This document shows, piece by piece, positions 19,391-43,847 of a DNA stretch of 64,000 nt. Source of the stretch: Belliella baltica DSM 15883 (GTDB lineage: Bacteria; Bacteroidota; Bacteroidia; Cytophagales; Cyclobacteriaceae); NCBI RefSeq assembly GCF_000265405.1, contig NC_018010.1, positions 1,426,001-1,490,000 on the forward strand, written 5' to 3'. The notes under the pieces were generated by a model. That model worked only from the letters and a program-made list of their open reading frames with translations, was not told where the DNA came from and made no database searches. The position numbers and the translations under genes were made by a program. The stretch's first letter is position 1; every line of letters begins with the position of its first letter.

Positions 19391-19421
19391 TTTGCTCAAT
19401 TGAAAAGCGTTTCTATATTTG
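19391..19421 (+). promoter_or_regulatory. Strong-consensus promoter of the tRNA-Ala array
   Basis: TTTG (19391-19394), 19 bp, then TATATTTG (19414-19421) is an exact match to the Bacteroidota housekeeping promoter. The predicted start lies about 19427-19430, just before the tRNA-like units. The whole array would therefore be transcribed upstream of the functional tRNA. Confidence 0.8.
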
Positions 19422-19441
19422 CAGTCCAATAGGGGGGTACC

Positions 19442-20211
19442 TTCCCGAAATTCTTCGGGACTAGATCGTCCCGACTGTTGTCGGGAAGACCACTGAGTTA
19501 CTCAGGGCAAAAATATAAGGGGGATTAGCTCAGTTGGCTAGAGCGTCCCGACTGCTGTCGGGAAGACCACCGAGTTACTCGGGAGAAAAATATAAGGGGG
19601 ATTAGCACAGTTGTCTAGATCGTCCCGACTGCTGTCGGGAAGACCACCGAGTTACTCGGGAGAAAAATATAAGGGGGATTAGCACAGTTGTCTAGATCGT
19701 CCCGACTGCTGTCGGGAAGACCACCGAGTTACTCGGGAGAAAAATATAAGGGGGATTAGCACAGTTGTCTAGATCGTCCCGACTGCTGTCGGGAAGACCA
19801 CCGAGTTACTCGGGAGAAAAATATAAGGGGGATTAGCACAGTTGTCTAGATCGTCCCGACTGCTGTCGGGAAGACCACCGAGTTACTCGGGAGAAAAATA
19901 TAAGGGGGATTAGCACAGTTGTCTAGATCGTCCCGACTGCTGTCGGGAAGACCACCGAGTTACTCGGGAGAAAAATATAAGGGGGATTAGCACAGTTGTC
20001 TAGATCGTCCCGACTGCTGTCGGGAAGACCACCGAGTTACTCGGGAGAAAAATATAAGGGGGATTAGCACAGTTGTCTAGATCGTCCCGACTGCTGTCGG
20101 GAAGACCACCGAGTTACTCGGGAGAAAAATATAAGGGGGATTAGCACAGTTGTCTAGATCGTCCCGACTGCTGTCGGGAAGACCACCGAGTTACTCGGGA
20201 GAAAAATATAA
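19442..20211 (+). repeat. Tandem array of ten 77-bp tRNA-Ala-derived units
   Basis: Units begin at 19442, 19519, 19596, 19673, 19750, 19827, 19904, 19981, 20058 and 20135, exactly 77 bp apart. The intact tRNA starts in the same phase at 20212. Unit 2 (19519) keeps the tRNA 5' part, including the D arm. Units 3-10 (19596-20211) appear identical to each other and carry D-arm changes (GCAC, TTGTC, GATC). All replace the anticodon arm with TCCCGAC-loop-GTCGGGA and the T arm with CCGAG-TTA-CTCGG, and end in GAGAAAAATATAA instead of ATTCTCCACCA. Unit 1 is diverged: its D arm is replaced by a TTCCCGAA/TTCGGGA hairpin, and its second stem reads CTGAG/CTCAG, a paired change relative to CCGAG/CTCGG. 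Function unknown. Confidence 0.92.
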
Positions 20212-20288
20212 GGGGGATTAGCTCAGTTGGCTAGAGCGCTACACTGGCAGTGTAGAGGCCACCGGTTCGAATCCGGTATTCTCCACCA
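20212..20288 (+). tRNA. tRNA-Ala (anticodon GGC)
   Basis: A complete cloverleaf is present. The acceptor GGGGGAT pairs with ATTCTCC, the D arm is GCTC/GAGC, and the anticodon stem is CTACA/TGTAG with loop CTGGCAG (anticodon GGC at 20246-20248). The T arm is ACCGG-TTCGAAT-CCGGT, followed by A and an encoded CCA. It is the last and only intact member of the 77-bp array and is followed by its own terminator. Confidence 0.96.
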
Positions 20289-20316
20289 AGGCTTGCAATT
20301 TTGTGAGCCTTTTTTC
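20288..20316 (+). terminator. Terminator of tRNA-Ala
   Basis: AAGGCTTGCAA pairs with TTGTGAGCCTT (two G-U pairs), followed by a T6 run. A near copy, with GGCTTGCA and TGCAAGCC, recurs after the decayed tRNA at 21930-21950. Confidence 0.8.
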
Positions 20317-20321
20317 TTGGA

Positions 20322-20381
20322 ACACAGTTGTGAAGAGCGTCCCGACACCTGTCGGGAAGGCCACCGGTTCGAATCGGGGGT
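20322..20381 (+). pseudogene. Decayed tRNA-Ala copy interrupted by IS3
   Basis: The piece has a D-arm remnant (ACACAGTTG...AGAGCG), then the TCCCGAC-ACCT-GTCGGGA hairpin in place of the anticodon arm. A good T arm follows (GCCACCGGTTCGAATCGGGG). It then breaks into the insertion sequence, and its 3' end (GGTATTCTCCAC) reappears at 21914 on the far side. Confidence 0.8.
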
Positions 20382-20441
20382 CGTGTACTGAAATAGGTTG
20401 ACACAATTTTACTAGAAATTGTAAACCTATAATCGGACAAA

Positions 20442-20834
20442 ATGCGAAAGACAGAAAAATTCTCTGAGGAGGCAAAGAGAAAAATTGTTATGGAAGTACT
20501 ATCAGGTACTTTGACTAAAGAACAAGCAAGGCATGTTTATGGAATTAAAAGTAAATCCGCTATCTTGGAATGGATGAGGATTTTTGCTGGTTTAGAAAGG
20601 AGAGTTCCTAAGGACCCTCTTCCGATATTAAGAAACATGTCAGAAAAACAGGATTCCAACAACGAGTTAAAAGCTCGTATTAAGCAACTTGAAGAAGAGT
20701 TGAAGCTTAGCCAGTTAAAGGGCAGGGCATATCAGATCATGGTCGATATTGCCAAAGAAGAATATGGGCTGGATCTTGAAAAAAAGTCTGGTGCCAAGCA
20801 GTTCAAAGACTCAAAGAAGAAGAGCCAAGGATAA
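20442..20834 (+). CDS. IS3-family transposase OrfA
   Basis: The 130-aa product has the helix-turn-helix of IS3 OrfA: FSEEAKRKIVMEVLSGTLTK, then a second helix with KSKSAILEWMRIF. A coiled-coil/leucine-zipper segment (SNNELKARIKQLEEELKLSQ) follows, which mediates multimerisation in characterised elements. The slippery sequence A-AAA-AAG lies near its end, so the main product of transposition is probably the OrfAB fusion. Confidence 0.93.
   Translation: MRKTEKFSEEAKRKIVMEVLSGTLTKEQARHVYGIKSKSAILEWMRIFAGLERRVPKDPLPILRNMSEKQDSNNELKARIKQLEEELKLSQLKGRAYQIMVDIAKEEYGLDLEKKSGAKQFKDSKKKSQG
20780..20786 (+). promoter_or_regulatory. Programmed -1 frameshift site (A AAA AAG)
   Basis: The heptamer sits in the OrfA frame as GAA-AAA-AAG. 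A one-base slip enters a frame that is open from here into OrfB and reads QRLKEEEPRISLAQLCGLFG, a natural junction for IS3 transposases. Confidence 0.8.
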
Positions 20835-21850
20835 GCTTGGCTCAACTTTGTGGATTGTTTGGCAAGAGCAGACAAGGTTACTATAAAGGTATCAATAATG
20901 TTTGTAAAGAGGCATTTGAGGAAGATTTGGTGCTAAGTTTTGTTCTCAAGATCAGGAAGAAGGCTAAAACATCCAGGTGGGGGTTGAGAAAAATGTATTC
21001 TTTGATAAAGAAAGATTTAACCCTACATAAAATCAAGATAGGCAGAGATAAACTGTTTGATCTGCTTCGTATGAACGGATTATTAGTTACTAAGAGAAAA
21101 AGGAGGTTTTTCACTACCCAGAGCCATCATTGGCTAAGGAAGTACCATAATCTTGTTGAAAATATGGTTGTCTCAAGACCCAACCAGTTATGGGTCTCCG
21201 ATATTACCTATGTCGAGCTTAACAGGGAAGTCATGTATCTGTATCTTATTACAGATGCTTATTCCCAGAAAATAGTGGGCTGGAATCTTTCTTTTGACCT
21301 GAAGGCTGAATCGGCGCTTGATGCCCTAAAAATGGCTTTTCAATCTCAGAAATACATTGAACCATACTCCCTGATTCATCACTCAGACCGTGGGGTACAG
21401 TACTGCAGTTATGATTACACGGACCTTTTAAAAAAGAAAAAAGTCTGGATCAGTATGACGAAGCCTGCCTCCCCACATGAAAATGCCATAGCAGAAAGAG
21501 TAAACGGTATTCTTAAAGAAGAGTGGTTGGATGATATTGCTAGAGAACAAGGTGTCAATGCACAAAAATATATAAGTCAGATCATCAAAATCTATAATGA
21601 TATGAGACCGCACGAAGGACTGGGGAGTAATCTTACGCCAAACCAAGTACATGACGAAGGTTTTCTAAGGCATGATACCGAACGCGTTATTGGGAATAAG
21701 TACAGCTGGAAAAAGAAGACCGAACCTGTTAAGATCCGGTCTGAAAATAGCAACACTATCGGACCAAACGACTATTCCTTGGCAAGTTGCTCCTCAGCAG
21801 AGCTTGCCTCCGCTTCATCGTGGTATTGTAAGTTATCCCAAACTTCTTAG
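20786..21850 (+). CDS. IS3-family transposase OrfB (rve/DDE integrase domain)
   Basis: This is the catalytic half of the transposase, in the -1 frame relative to orfA and expressed as a fusion by frameshifting. An HTH_21 region (RKKAKTSRWGLRKMYSLIKK) precedes the rve domain. The DDE residues are in NQLWVSDITYVEL (first Asp), HHSDRGVQYCS (second Asp) and SPHENAIAERVNGILKEEW (Glu). The frame is undamaged, so the element may still be active. A TTG at 20837 could give an isolated OrfB but has no strong initiation context. Confidence 0.92.
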   Translation, partial: VWCQAVQRLKEEEPRISLAQLCGLFGKSRQGYYKGINNVCKEAFEEDLVLSFVLKIRKKAKTSRWGLRKMYSLIKKDLTLHKIKIGRDKLFDLLRMNGLLVTKRKRRFFTTQSHHWLRKYHNLVENMVVSRPNQLWVSDITYVELNREVMYLYLITDAYSQKIVGWNLSFDLKAESALDALKMAFQSQKYIEPYSLIHHSDRGVQYCSYDYTDLLKKKKVWISMTKPASPHENAIAERVNGILKEEWLDDIAREQGVNAQKYISQIIKIYNDMRPHEGLGSNLTPNQVHDEGFLRHDTERVIGNKYSWKKKTEPVKIRSENSNTIGPNDYSLASCSSAELASASSWYCKLSQTS

Positions 21851-21910
21851 AAATTGAAATACTAACTATATTTGAACAATAAAAGTGTCAACCATTTTCA
21901 GGACGAGACA

Positions 21911-22034
21911 GGGGGTATTCTCCACAATGGCTTGCAATTCTGCAAGCCTATTTTCTTGATAGATAGTAGATTTTAGAGCGTCCCGACACCTGTCGGGAAG
22001 AAAACCTGATCGTCTTGAAATTCGGTACTCTCAA
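21911..22034 (+). pseudogene. tRNA-Ala 3' remnant plus a further decayed copy
   Basis: GGTATTCTCCACAATGGC is the 3' end of the tRNA copy split by IS3, followed by a terminator-like GGCTTGCA/TGCAAGCC hairpin. Next comes another decayed unit with AGAGCG, the TCCCGAC-ACCT-GTCGGGA hairpin, and a weak T-arm/acceptor remnant ending in CGGTACTCTCAATAA. The IS1182-family element begins directly after it. The gap 21851-22228 holds nothing else but IS ends. Confidence 0.7.
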
Positions 22035-22228: not shown

Positions 22229-23776
22229 TTATGCTGCTTTTGCTGCCTTTCTGGAAAGGTTGTGGGCGATTGCATGAAGACCTGTTTCAATTTCCACCTT
22301 TTCCAGTCCCCTGAGCACATACCTCTTCATCCCCTTGTTTTGCTTAAGGTGTCCGAATACAGGTTCGACGTCTGTGGCCCGCTGCTTTCTTTTTTGGATT
22401 CCCTCGGGAGAGGTCAGCTTTTGTTTTGCTTCTGATTTATACCGTTCCAATGCCCTGTTGACTTCAATGGTTTTGTTTCCCTTTCCCGGCCTGCAGGAAG
22501 CAGCCAAAGGACATCCCACACATTTTGATGCTGTATATCTTGCGTATTCTTGTTTGTATCCTGTCGCTGTTGTCCTGGTTCTGGTACCGTTCCTTTCCAT
22601 TGGCTGTCCCATCGGGCAGATACACCTGTCCTTTTGGCTGTCGTAATACAGGTTTTCAAGTAGTCTGTATTCCCTGTTTTTCTTGTTTTCTTCTCTGAGT
22701 TCCTTATGGAAGTAATTATACTTTACATACGCTGATGTACCGTTCTGCTCGAGGGCAGCATAGTTTTCCTCGCTTCCGTACCCCGCATCGGCAGTCAGCG
22801 TTTCGGGATAAGCTCCGTACATCTGCCGGTAGGCATCGATATGCGGGATAAGTGTGGTGGTATCGTTGGGTTTTTGGTGCAGGGTATAGTTGACCACAAA
22901 GTGTCCGTGGGTACTGAGCTGGAGGTTATAGCCGGGTTTAAGCTGCCCGTTTTTCATGTGATCTTCCTTCATCCGCATGAAAGTGGCATCTTCATCGGTT
23001 TTTGAATAGCTGTTGCGTTCCAGTAAGGTCTTCTCCTTCTGTTCATATTCGGCAAGCTTTCCTGGCCAGTTTTTCTCTGCATACCTGAGCTTCTGTCTCA
23101 CTTTGGGATCAACTTCTTTGCCCTGTAGTGCCGTGTTGATCTTCTCAACGGTTTCAAGTACTTTTTGGGGACTGGGATTCTCAAACTTCTCTTCGGGCTG
23201 TCCGAGTTCTTCCTTTGCCGTATCGGCAGCGTAATCCCAGAGCTCCTGAAGCTGCTTTGCAATCCTCTCCCTGCTCTTCTTGACAGCCTTTCCCCAGACA
23301 AAGGTGTACCTGTTGGCGTTGGCCTCTATTTTAGTCCCGTCTGTATAAACGTCTTTTATGTCCAGAAGCCCTTCGTCGTAAAGCATGAGCACTACCTGTG
23401 AAAAAATCTCCCGGATCACTTCACGGAGCTTTTCCCCCCGGAAACGATTGATGGTATTATGGTCGGGTCGCTGCATGCCCGAGAGCCACATGAAACCGAT
23501 ATTTTCACGGACAGCTTTCTCAAGCTTACGGGAGGAATAGCAGTTTTCCAGATAACCGTATATTAGTACCTTCAACAGCATACGGGGATGGTAACTGCTC
23601 GCTCCCATATTGCTGTACTGCGAAAAGATCGGCTGGATGTTTATCTTGTCTACGACCGTGCTGACTACACGGACGGGATGCTCTGATGGAAGAAGGTCAC
23701 CCAAATTGTGGGGAAGGAGCATCAACTGGTTGTGATCATAGTCTTTAAAGACTATATTTGAGTCTTGTTTTTGCAC
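22229..23776 (-). CDS. IS1182-family transposase
   Basis: The 515-aa DDE transposase has the family's N-terminal domain (HPVRVVSTVVDKI, SSYHPRMLLKVLIYGYLE). The first catalytic Asp lies in VYTDGTKIEANANRYTF, the second in [13 protein letters not shown] and the Glu in DVEPVFGHLKQNKG. A four-cysteine segment (CICPMGQPM ... CVGCPLAASC) precedes the last motif. The frame is intact. It differs clearly from the two copies downstream (43954-45624), so it belongs to a separate lineage of the same family. Confidence 0.95.
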   Translation of the reverse strand: MQKQDSNIVFKDYDHNQLMLLPHNLGDLLPSEHPVRVVSTVVDKINIQPIFSQYSNMGASSYHPRMLLKVLIYGYLENCYSSRKLEKAVRENIGFMWLSGMQRPDHNTINRFRGEKLREVIREIFSQVVLMLYDEGLLDIKDVYTDGTKIEANANRYTFVWGKAVKKSRERIAKQLQELWDYAADTAKEELGQPEEKFENPSPQKVLETVEKINTALQGKEVDPKVRQKLRYAEKNWPGKLAEYEQKEKTLLERNSYSKTDEDATFMRMKEDHMKNGQLKPGYNLQLSTHGHFVVNYTLHQKPNDTTTLIPHIDAYRQMYGAYPETLTADAGYGSEENYAALEQNGTSAYVKYNYFHKELREENKKNREYRLLENLYYDSQKDRCICPMGQPMERNGTRTRTTATGYKQEYARYTASKCVGCPLAASCRPGKGNKTIEVNRALERYKSEAKQKLTSPEGIQKRKQRATDVEPVFGHLKQNKGMKRYVLRGLEKVEIETGLHAIAHNLSRKAAKAA

Positions 23777-23891: not shown

Positions 23892-24155
23892 ATGTATTTT
23901 ACCTACATTCTATTCTCGACTAAGACGAACAAGTACTATGTTGGTTCTACTGATGATTTAGAATCGAGGCTAAGGCATCATAATGCAGGGTCAACTCCAT
24001 CTACTAAATCAGGTTCGCCGTTTTGGGAAATTGTATATGCAGAACAATTTGAAGACAAGACTTTATCACTTAAACGAGAAATTGAAATAAAGAGGAAAAA
24101 GTCAAGAAAGTATATTGAATGGCTTGTTCAAAACCAATCAGGTTTCGGTGATTAA
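23892..24155 (+). CDS. Solo GIY-YIG nuclease-domain protein
   Basis: The ATG at 23892 gives 87 aa that are all GIY-YIG domain: MYFTYILFSTKTNKYYVGST (the GIY/YIG strands read TYI and YYVG), then DLESRLRHHNAGS with the catalytic Arg, and EIVYAEQFEDKTLSLKREIE with the metal-binding Glu. Small proteins of this kind (YhbQ/UvrC N-terminal-like) are numerous in Bacteroidota and often sit beside tRNA or rRNA genes. The IS1182 end abuts its 5' side, so the native promoter may be lost. Substrate unknown. Confidence 0.88.
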   Translation: MYFTYILFSTKTNKYYVGSTDDLESRLRHHNAGSTPSTKSGSPFWEIVYAEQFEDKTLSLKREIEIKRKKSRKYIEWLVQNQSGFGD

Positions 24156-25021: not shown

Positions 25022-25132
25022 GAAATATTAACTTTTTGTTTTCTCAAAAGGTTTTGCCCTTCTTTAATATTATTTAAAGATTGGTTATTAGAGATTATTC
25101 AAAAAATATAGGAAGTTTTAAACGATTCAAAA

Positions 25133-25222
25133 ATGTTAATAACGTCAGTTAAATGACGGAATTAATGTTAATACCGTCAATTAACTGACGAAATTAATGT
25201 TAATACCGTCAGTATATTTGCG
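25133..25222 (+). repeat. Three 32-bp direct repeats carrying a palindrome, overlapping a promoter
   Basis: Units start at 25133, 25165 and 25197. Each begins ATGTTAATAMCGTCA. The first two contain palindromes (CGTCAGTTAAATGACG at 25143-25158, CGTCAATTAACTGACG at 25175-25190). In the third, the right half is replaced by TATATTTG, a -7 box. This looks like an operator array controlling the ATPase gene 48 bp further on. Confidence 0.75.
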
Positions 25223-42935: not shown

Positions 42936-43241
42936 TTACATTTTGCAAGCTTCTGCACATTTTTTGCAAGCATCGGCGCATTTTTTGCAACATTCCATAT
43001 CGTGTTTTTTGCACTCGTTGGCACAATCTTCACAACATTTTACGCATAATTCACAAAGTGCATCGGCAAATTTTGAACCTCTCGCACATAATCTTGCACA
43101 AAGGGCACAAATGTCGGCACAATCACGACACAATTTTACACATTCTAAATGGTCTTTTACTATTAGACAACCATCAGCACATTTTTCACATTCAACCATA
43201 CAGGCTAAACACGCTTCAACACTTACTTGAATATTTTTCAT
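42936..43241 (-). CDS. Cys-rich four-helix-bundle copper-binding protein (DUF326/Csp-like)
   Basis: The 101-aa protein holds 23 cysteines, mostly as CxxxC or CxxC along predicted helices (VEACLACMVECEKCADGC, CCKKCADACKKCAEACK). This is the DUF326 pattern shared with copper storage proteins (Csp), whose inward-facing thiols bind many Cu(I) ions. No signal peptide is evident, so it would act in the cytoplasm like Csp3. It lies inside the composite transposon next to a heavy-metal-binding lipoprotein gene, which supports a metal-tolerance role. The exact metal is inferred from the family. Confidence 0.88.
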   Translation of the reverse strand: MKNIQVSVEACLACMVECEKCADGCLIVKDHLECVKLCRDCADICALCARLCARGSKFADALCELCVKCCEDCANECKKHDMECCKKCADACKKCAEACKM

Positions 43242-43535: not shown

Positions 43536-43847
43536 TTATTTACTTTCTTCCGTTTTTTCTGGAACAGGTTCGGTTAATTTCATACTACATTTTGAGAATT
43601 TGTCATTCAGTTTTCCTTGTACTTCTGGGTGCATTGGGCAGGCATACATTTTTGTTTGATTGTTCATCATTTTAGTTTTATCATTCATTACTGTGCTATC
43701 ATTACTCATCATAGTACTATCATTTTCCATCATAGTACTGTCATTGCTCATCATATTAGAATGATCTGTCGTGGCTTCTTTGTTTTTTTGATTACAAGAA
43801 ACTAATACGTAAGCCATTATTACGGCTGAAAGAATTACTTTTTTCAT
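43536..43847 (-). CDS. Met-rich lipoprotein with a heavy-metal-binding domain
   Basis: The 103-aa product has a lipoprotein signal (VLVSC, C18). Five seven-residue Met-rich repeats follow (MMSNDST, MMENDST, MMSNDST, VMNDKTK, MMNNQTK). The end is a heavy-metal-binding domain, YACPMHPEVQGKLNDKFSKC, the motif found at the front of CusB/CopB-type exporters and in YHS-like proteins. The Met repeats and the CPMHP motif both suggest extracytoplasmic Cu(I) or Ag(I) binding. The Met-rich repeat probably arose by tandem duplication of a 21-bp unit. Confidence 0.85.
   Translation of the reverse strand: MKKVILSAVIMAYVLVSCNQKNKEATTDHSNMMSNDSTMMENDSTMMSNDSTVMNDKTKMMNNQTKMYACPMHPEVQGKLNDKFSKCSMKLTEPVPEKTEESK

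Follow-up and report, generated by a model that had tools for sequence, protein, structure and literature searches.

Ten tandem copies of a 77-bp, hairpin-armed derivative of tRNA-Ala lie between a promoter and the functional tRNA-Ala(GGC) gene in the window (the whole 64,000-nucleotide stretch of Belliella baltica DSM 15883 analysed here), and a small GIY-YIG nuclease gene lies 3.6 kb from the tRNA, with IS3 and IS1182 elements between. Copies of this kind recur at tRNA genes of relatives, where they are associated with small GIY-YIG nuclease genes. On balance we favour a reading in which a gene for a free-standing, tRNA-specific GIY-YIG homing nuclease, similar to SegB of phage T4, occupies the tRNA-Ala(GGC) locus and the array flanks that locus on the promoter side.

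Anatomy of the tRNA-Ala(GGC) locus

The features of the locus, in window coordinates, are as follows.

19391..19421, + strand: promoter TTTG-N19-TATATTTG, ahead of the array and tRNA (from sequence; TTTG at 19391-19394, then 19 bases, TATATTTG at 19414-19421)
19431..19518, + strand: unit 1, divergent, with TTCCCGAAATTCTTCGGGA for the D-arm and TCCCGACTGTTGTCGGGA for the anticodon arm (sequence, unit alignment)
19519..19595, + strand: unit 2, with the tRNA-Ala 5' part intact, a hairpin for the anticodon arm, an altered T arm and no 3' acceptor half (74/77 to the consensus unit)
19596..20211, + strand: units 3-10, eight identical 77-bp units (Tandem Repeats Finder, unit alignment)
20212..20288, + strand: intact tRNA-Ala(GGC) including CCA (ARAGORN; Rfam RF00005, 66.8 bits)
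20288..20315, + strand: terminator AAGGCTTGCAATTTTGTGAGCCTT-TTTT (sequence)
20322..20380, + strand: downstream tRNA copy with TCCCGACACCTGTCGGGA in the place of the anticodon arm, its tail lying past the IS3 element at about 21916-21925 (unit search, alignment)
20381..21910, + strand: IS3-family element inside that downstream copy, ends approximate (transposase ORFs 20442-20834 and 20837-21850; GGGGG on both sides)
21974..22001, + strand: second downstream relic with the same hairpin, a terminator copy ahead of it (unit search)
22229..23776, - strand: IS1182-family transposase between the tRNA and the nuclease gene (NF033551, 451.7 bits)
23892..24155, + strand: small GIY-YIG nuclease gene, 87 aa, the partner in the proposed system (PF01541 above cut-off)

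Tandem Repeats Finder reports 19461-20235 as a tandem repeat of period 77 with 10.1 copies and 98% match, and alignment in register places all ten units in the exact phase of the intact tRNA gene downstream, the sole tRNA detected in the window; this bears out the spacing and phase given in a preliminary description of this DNA, which had also correctly placed a consensus promoter ahead of the array. The eight units at 19596-20211 are mutually identical (77/77 in tRNA register), in support of the recent amplification or homogenisation proposed there, whereas unit 2 differs from them at 3 positions and the most upstream unit (register 19442-19518) matches at 55/77. Since the D-arm of this last unit is exchanged for TTCCCGAAATTCTTCGGGA, the tRNA 5' part that every unit was said to keep is in fact kept in 9/10. 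The 77-bp unit carries this 5' part but is without the 3' acceptor strand, and as first described its anticodon arm CTACACTGGCAGTGTAG has become TCCCGACTGCTGTCGGGA and its T arm has been exchanged for the short hairpin CCGAG-TTA-CTCGG. The D stem, too, is disrupted in the eight identical units, GCTC/GAGC having become GCAC/GATC. Sigma-70-type matches within the array all repeat a single weak match on the minus strand, and we set them aside.

Across the 4.197-Mb single-contig genome, unit matches are confined to the array and the two relics just downstream of it, apart from one 14-base chance match (E 3.4). The SINE-like dispersed derivative that had been suggested is therefore rejected: SINEs are tRNA-derived repeats known as retroposons, and the window unit is also tRNA-derived, yet it stays at its own locus. 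Period, copy number and unit identity rule out a chance origin of the array, and an assembly artefact is unlikely, as two contigs of a same-genus genome (G001) end or begin inside the homologous array and another genome in one contig (G271) also possesses an array. Two side observations concern the surroundings. The same IS3-family left end, TCGTGTACTGAAATAGG after ATCGGGGG, adjoins TCCCGA-type palindromes in two genomes (window 20381-21910 and locus L038), a hint that this IS3-family element may target the palindromes. The window also has short tandem repeats, with periods of 32 and 21, at 25132-25213, 42941-42990 and 43647-43755.

Recurrence in relatives and the GIY-YIG nuclease partner

The unit search, which the preliminary description had proposed, covered 98 genomes and then 295 family genomes, and it revealed that arrays recur, with the same placement in at least 10 genera. 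We annotated 82 Ala-tRNA loci, one per genome (80 GGC and 2 TGC), a sample enriched for unit hits because about 20 loci were fetched for holding them. In this enriched sample, tRNA copies with palindrome-replaced arms lie upstream of the tRNA at 26/82 Ala loci, five of which were picked by palindrome alone and confirmed on reading as D-arm-replaced tRNA copies. The sequence TAnnTTTG is found within 60 nt ahead of the first unit in 24/26 of these loci, the two exceptions being a contig that starts inside the array and a box 71 nt away; between the first copy and the tRNA this promoter-like sequence occurs in none of the 26, in agreement with the earlier view that the units stand behind one promoter. 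Unit length and number vary, with seven 158-bp units in G271, three 76-bp units in G139 and three 83-bp units in Algoriphagus mannitolivorans (G219). In the array of G004, which is among those with no adjoining nuclease gene, the D arm is replaced rather than the anticodon arm. Within the genus, genome G001 is identical to a Belliella aquatica contig over the 1,562 bases compared. Similar tRNA copies lie downstream of terminators in many cases.

The same design is seen at other tRNA genes. Hairpin-armed copies precede tRNA-Ala(TGC) in an rRNA operon (isotype read by eye), eleven 83-bp units precede tRNA-Arg(TCT), and hairpin-armed upstream copies are also found at tRNA-Asp, Val, Met, Pro and His. 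At the tRNA-Thr locus of G004 the downstream copies have all three loops replaced by TTCCGATAGCTATCGGAA or TCCCGATAGCTATCGGGA, while in G003 the D and T loops are replaced and the anticodon loop is not. Moreover, a Patescibacteria MAG contig has the same layout at tRNA-Arg, with the palindrome TCCCGATGGACATCGGGA, and a repeat of the host genome would not by itself readily account for this sharing of layout and motif. The preliminary description was right on the units themselves, but it overlooked the downstream copies, the recurrence at other tRNA genes and the nuclease partner. Three loci are recorded here as observations in their own right: in L285 (Candidatus Nomurabacteria) a GIY-YIG gene ahead of a tRNA is flanked by tRNA-like copies with several different hairpins; L196 (G004:C33) has two GIY-YIG genes and tRNA-like hairpin copies (TCCCGCATGTGCGGGA, TCCCGTACGTACGGGA and TCCCGCACGTGCGGGA), with no intact tRNA in the stretch examined; and L332 (G401:C34:6982-9769), from another family of the phylum, has eight GIY-YIG matches about 365 bp apart; in the stretch examined, TCCGCC palindromes lie between the matches and there is no tRNA.

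The nuclease of the window matches the GIY-YIG catalytic domain (PF01541, 4.6e-15), an alignment of 11 nucleases has 11 invariant columns, and close relatives of the window nuclease adjoin tRNA-Ala in Belliella aquatica and others. In searches with the whole Pfam family, small GIY-YIG genes have a same-strand tRNA within 500 bp at 20/27 loci of the genus and, among the matches listed, at 23/60 order-wide loci (a set that leaves out G336:C101 (two), G097:C1:1475996, G348:C36 and G349:C98). The same criterion gives 19/25 for the named small-GIY loci and 24/29 for phylum-wide small-GIY loci, the latter figure being biased upward by a phylum query (A1) that is a profile built from eleven tRNA-linked nucleases; these 29 exclude the window's own locus, and three overlap order-wide loci. 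At control loci, the genes of long UvrC/exonuclease GIY proteins, a tRNA was found in the 3.2-kb stretch examined in 0/18. Among the order-wide matches listed, 37/60 lack a same-strand tRNA inside the 500-bp limit (two have an opposite-strand tRNA); by eye, most of these appear to form a separate, stand-alone class whose C termini differ.

The nuclease is also associated with the copies themselves. Among 74 Ala loci, a downstream tRNA copy is present at 14 and absent at 5 with a GIY gene, against 5 and 50 without one (Fisher p=2e-7), and an upstream copy is present at 9 and absent at 10 with, against 3 and 52 without (Fisher p=1e-4), where both p-values ignore relatedness and the enriched sampling. 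This set drops the 8/82 loci with less than 600 bp downstream, and for the window genome both the GIY gene and the downstream copy were scored manually as present; 3 of the 12 Ala loci with upstream copies have no GIY gene. Nuclease and disarmed tRNA copy repeat jointly as a tandem cassette at Ala, Thr and Val loci, and in many cases the stop codon of the nuclease lies inside a stretch of tRNA sequence, one instance being ...ISSAG-stop, encoded by ATTAGCTCAGCTGGCTAG. On a tree of 84 nucleases, the 15 tRNA isotypes require 30 changes compared with a shuffled mean of 55.5 (0/200 shuffles as low), a clustering that would be expected if each nuclease were specific to a site in a particular tRNA gene. 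Resolution of the tree is poor (11/81 inner branches starred), and the grouping by isotype crosses host families for Met and Val, with no clustering for Pro, Lys and Ser.

Likeness of the nuclease to phage homing endonucleases is weak (PHROG 5123, E=9.6e-4, in one of three proteins), and its match to an NCBIfam group I intron endonuclease stays below the family cut-off. Comparison of the array with phage records and of the nuclease with viral contigs gave no match, leaving a phage origin unsupported.

Hairpins, palindromes and alternative explanations

The pattern TCCCGA-N-TCGGGA has 10-55 matches per genome of the genus, counting those in the arrays, and the reversed pattern has 1-5. In G061 the tRNA-Pro array uses a different palindrome, CCCCGCC/GGCGGGG, with 95 matches in G061 and 0 in 8 other genomes tested; G061 also has 231 TCCCGA-type palindromes, none of which is used in its Pro array. 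From -30 to +100 nt of the end of the nuclease ORF a palindrome is found at 36/75 tRNA-linked and 10/51 unlinked loci (the order part among the matches listed; doubles removed, and some of these palindromes being terminators), and for comparison in 64/1,580 background windows. Within the copies the palindromes fall in tRNA arms or loops, and paired stems are kept. Separately, we observe that ACAGGCT often follows such palindromes (L029, L031, L038, L039, L151), which suggests that the palindrome is part of a longer, defined dispersed element.

These dispersed families invite a neutral reading, in which a decayed tRNA duplicate was invaded by a selfish palindrome of the RPE/REP kind and expanded by unequal crossing-over into a satellite, with the GIY-YIG gene as a frequent squatter. 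That palindromes are spread genome-wide, up to the 231 of G061, and that one palindrome family is limited to one of nine genomes speak for such a process, as do the broken D stem in eight units and the arrays with no adjoining nuclease, as in G004. It accounts poorly, however, for the nuclease association, for nuclease lineages that cluster by isotype and for recurrence at many kinds of tRNA, for palindromes that sit in tRNA arms and loops with stem pairing kept, and for the same layout and motif in the Patescibacteria MAG contig, and we regard it as rather unlikely.

A second possibility, and one we think quite improbable, is that the nuclease recognises the hairpin itself, in extruded or single-stranded form, and that the array is a bank of targets or decoys which would divert cutting from the sole tRNA-Ala(GGC) gene. 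The seven-pair stem is always paired in 26 chosen units, with changes on both sides at 4/7 pairs (20 cells); since these rows were chosen for their hairpin, pairing is partly by construction and only the compensatory changes, which preserve the stem, are informative; they count toward the favoured homing-nuclease reading and also speak for a recognised structure. A core motif common to unrelated tRNAs and to two phyla speaks for a recognised structure as well. The nuclease profile, whose best match is to UPF0213 proteins, also matches the structure-specific nuclease SLX1, making cruciform cutting conceivable. Against a dedicated target stand the different motifs of other lineages (CCCCGCC, TCCGCC) and, again, arrays such as that of G004 which have no adjacent nuclease.

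We consider it very unlikely that the array is a functional leader RNA whose hairpins regulate or decoy RNase P or other RNases, or tune the supply of tRNA-Ala. Its position between promoter and tRNA in the loci seen and its conserved stem would suit this role, but most sampled relatives are without an array (upstream copies at 26/82, in the enriched sample), and many similar copies lie downstream of terminators. A single 77-bp unit folds with no more stability than its shuffles (z -0.83), which speaks against the structured multi-hairpin RNA envisaged in the preliminary description, and for the RNase decoy or regulatory roles mentioned there we found no evidence; the first unit, which is divergent and bears two hairpins (19425-19515), does fold better than shuffles (z -2.83). 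At the gathering threshold Rfam returns only RF00005 at the true tRNA, with no RtT or other described RNA, and a known Rfam RNA is rejected as the identity of the array. Finally, the idea that a RAYT tyrosine transposase moved REP elements that supplied the hairpins can be dismissed, for Y1 transposase matches are present in 11/12 genomes tested, but TCCCGA-N-TCGGGA occurs in 0/20 Y1 loci, most of which have other palindromes of their own.

Proposed mechanism and its known counterparts

In the homing-nuclease reading that we favour, a complete locus opens with hairpin-armed copies, followed by a single functional tRNA and its terminator, then by the nuclease gene and more hairpin-armed copies. 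By analogy with phage SegB, we infer that the nuclease would cut either its own tRNA gene or an allele that has no cassette; the direct tRNA repeats could then recombine to give tandem tRNA copies or nuclease-plus-tRNA cassettes. Surplus copies become disarmed as their D, anticodon or T loops are overwritten by a strong 16-20-bp palindrome, a pattern seen at these loci whose cause we can only suggest; the palindrome comes from a family with further members elsewhere in the host genome, as at the tRNA-Pro locus of G061. Such overwriting would remove tRNA function and probably the cleavage site too, and unequal exchange may subsequently homogenise the disarmed unit and raise its number, to ten in the window. 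Transcripts would bear hairpins ahead of the tRNA, presumably trimmed off in tRNA maturation. As to why arms are exchanged for palindromes, candidate reasons are immunity from cutting, the shedding of unwanted tRNA function, or a part for the hairpin as substrate of the nuclease.

SegB, encoded in the tRNA region of phages T4 and T6, is a free-standing GIY-YIG homing endonuclease (PMC13096335; PMC2988022). The passages on SegB in PMC13096335 place its gene among tRNA genes in which it cuts, and state that tandem amplification of a tRNA-Tyr segment needs SegB nuclease activity together with recombination functions; its authors suggest that the 5' region of the tRNA recombines with the 3' region of segB. 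Similar to SegB, the genes described here lie beside tRNAs, and their reading frames, which often end in tRNA sequence, recall the proposed segB 3' recombination. They differ in being chromosomal, of about 85 aa and of putative activity, in forming lineages that tend toward one tRNA isotype, and in that the extra tRNA copies are disarmed by palindromes.

The palindromes in turn resemble REP/RAYT and Rickettsia palindromic elements in being short, dispersed and of high copy, the REP/RAYT type being so characterised in the relevant passages of PMC3733652. In contrast to REP/RAYT, those studied here have no adjoining RAYT and are located in tRNA arms at nuclease loci. Rickettsia palindromic elements (RPE) are longer than the palindromes here. 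Tandem repeats with part of a tRNA are also known from a tRNA operon of E. coli, where the tyrT repeats (rtT RNA) lie downstream of the tRNA and hold its 3' end, whereas the window array lies upstream and has no RtT Rfam match. In Neisseria, the Ssn proteins are site-specific single-strand GIY-YIG nucleases acting on genomic repeats; these too combine a small GIY-YIG nuclease with cognate repeats, while the present system is tRNA-linked and its cleavage of the repeats putative. In the excerpts available of the 2006 survey of the GIY-YIG superfamily (PMC1564403) the words Bacteroid and Cytophaga are absent, and the tRNA passages do not deal with gene neighbours. For hairpin-armed tRNA arrays, the earlier statement that no element like this one has been described still holds as far as our searches of the open-licence PubMed Central literature reach.

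Considering the spread of these loci, we tentatively raise a wider possibility, which we hold with less conviction than the reading of the window locus: that they belong to an undescribed chromosomal mobile system in which isotype-dedicated lineages of small GIY-YIG nucleases colonise tRNA genes from Bacteroidota into Patescibacteria. Such nucleases would bring with them, or generate, tRNA copies in which a nuclease-linked hairpin takes the place of arms, the pseudo-tRNA arrays serving as a target bank or as marks of immunity. If true, isotype-specific homing nucleases would routinely parasitise tRNA genes throughout a phylum, which would explain why gene-copy debris and assembly breaks surround these genes, and phage SegB, for which amplification of a tRNA segment has just been demonstrated, would have a natural counterpart in chromosomes. 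That a conserved palindrome should take the place of tRNA arms is itself a strange, and testable, mutational or selective process.
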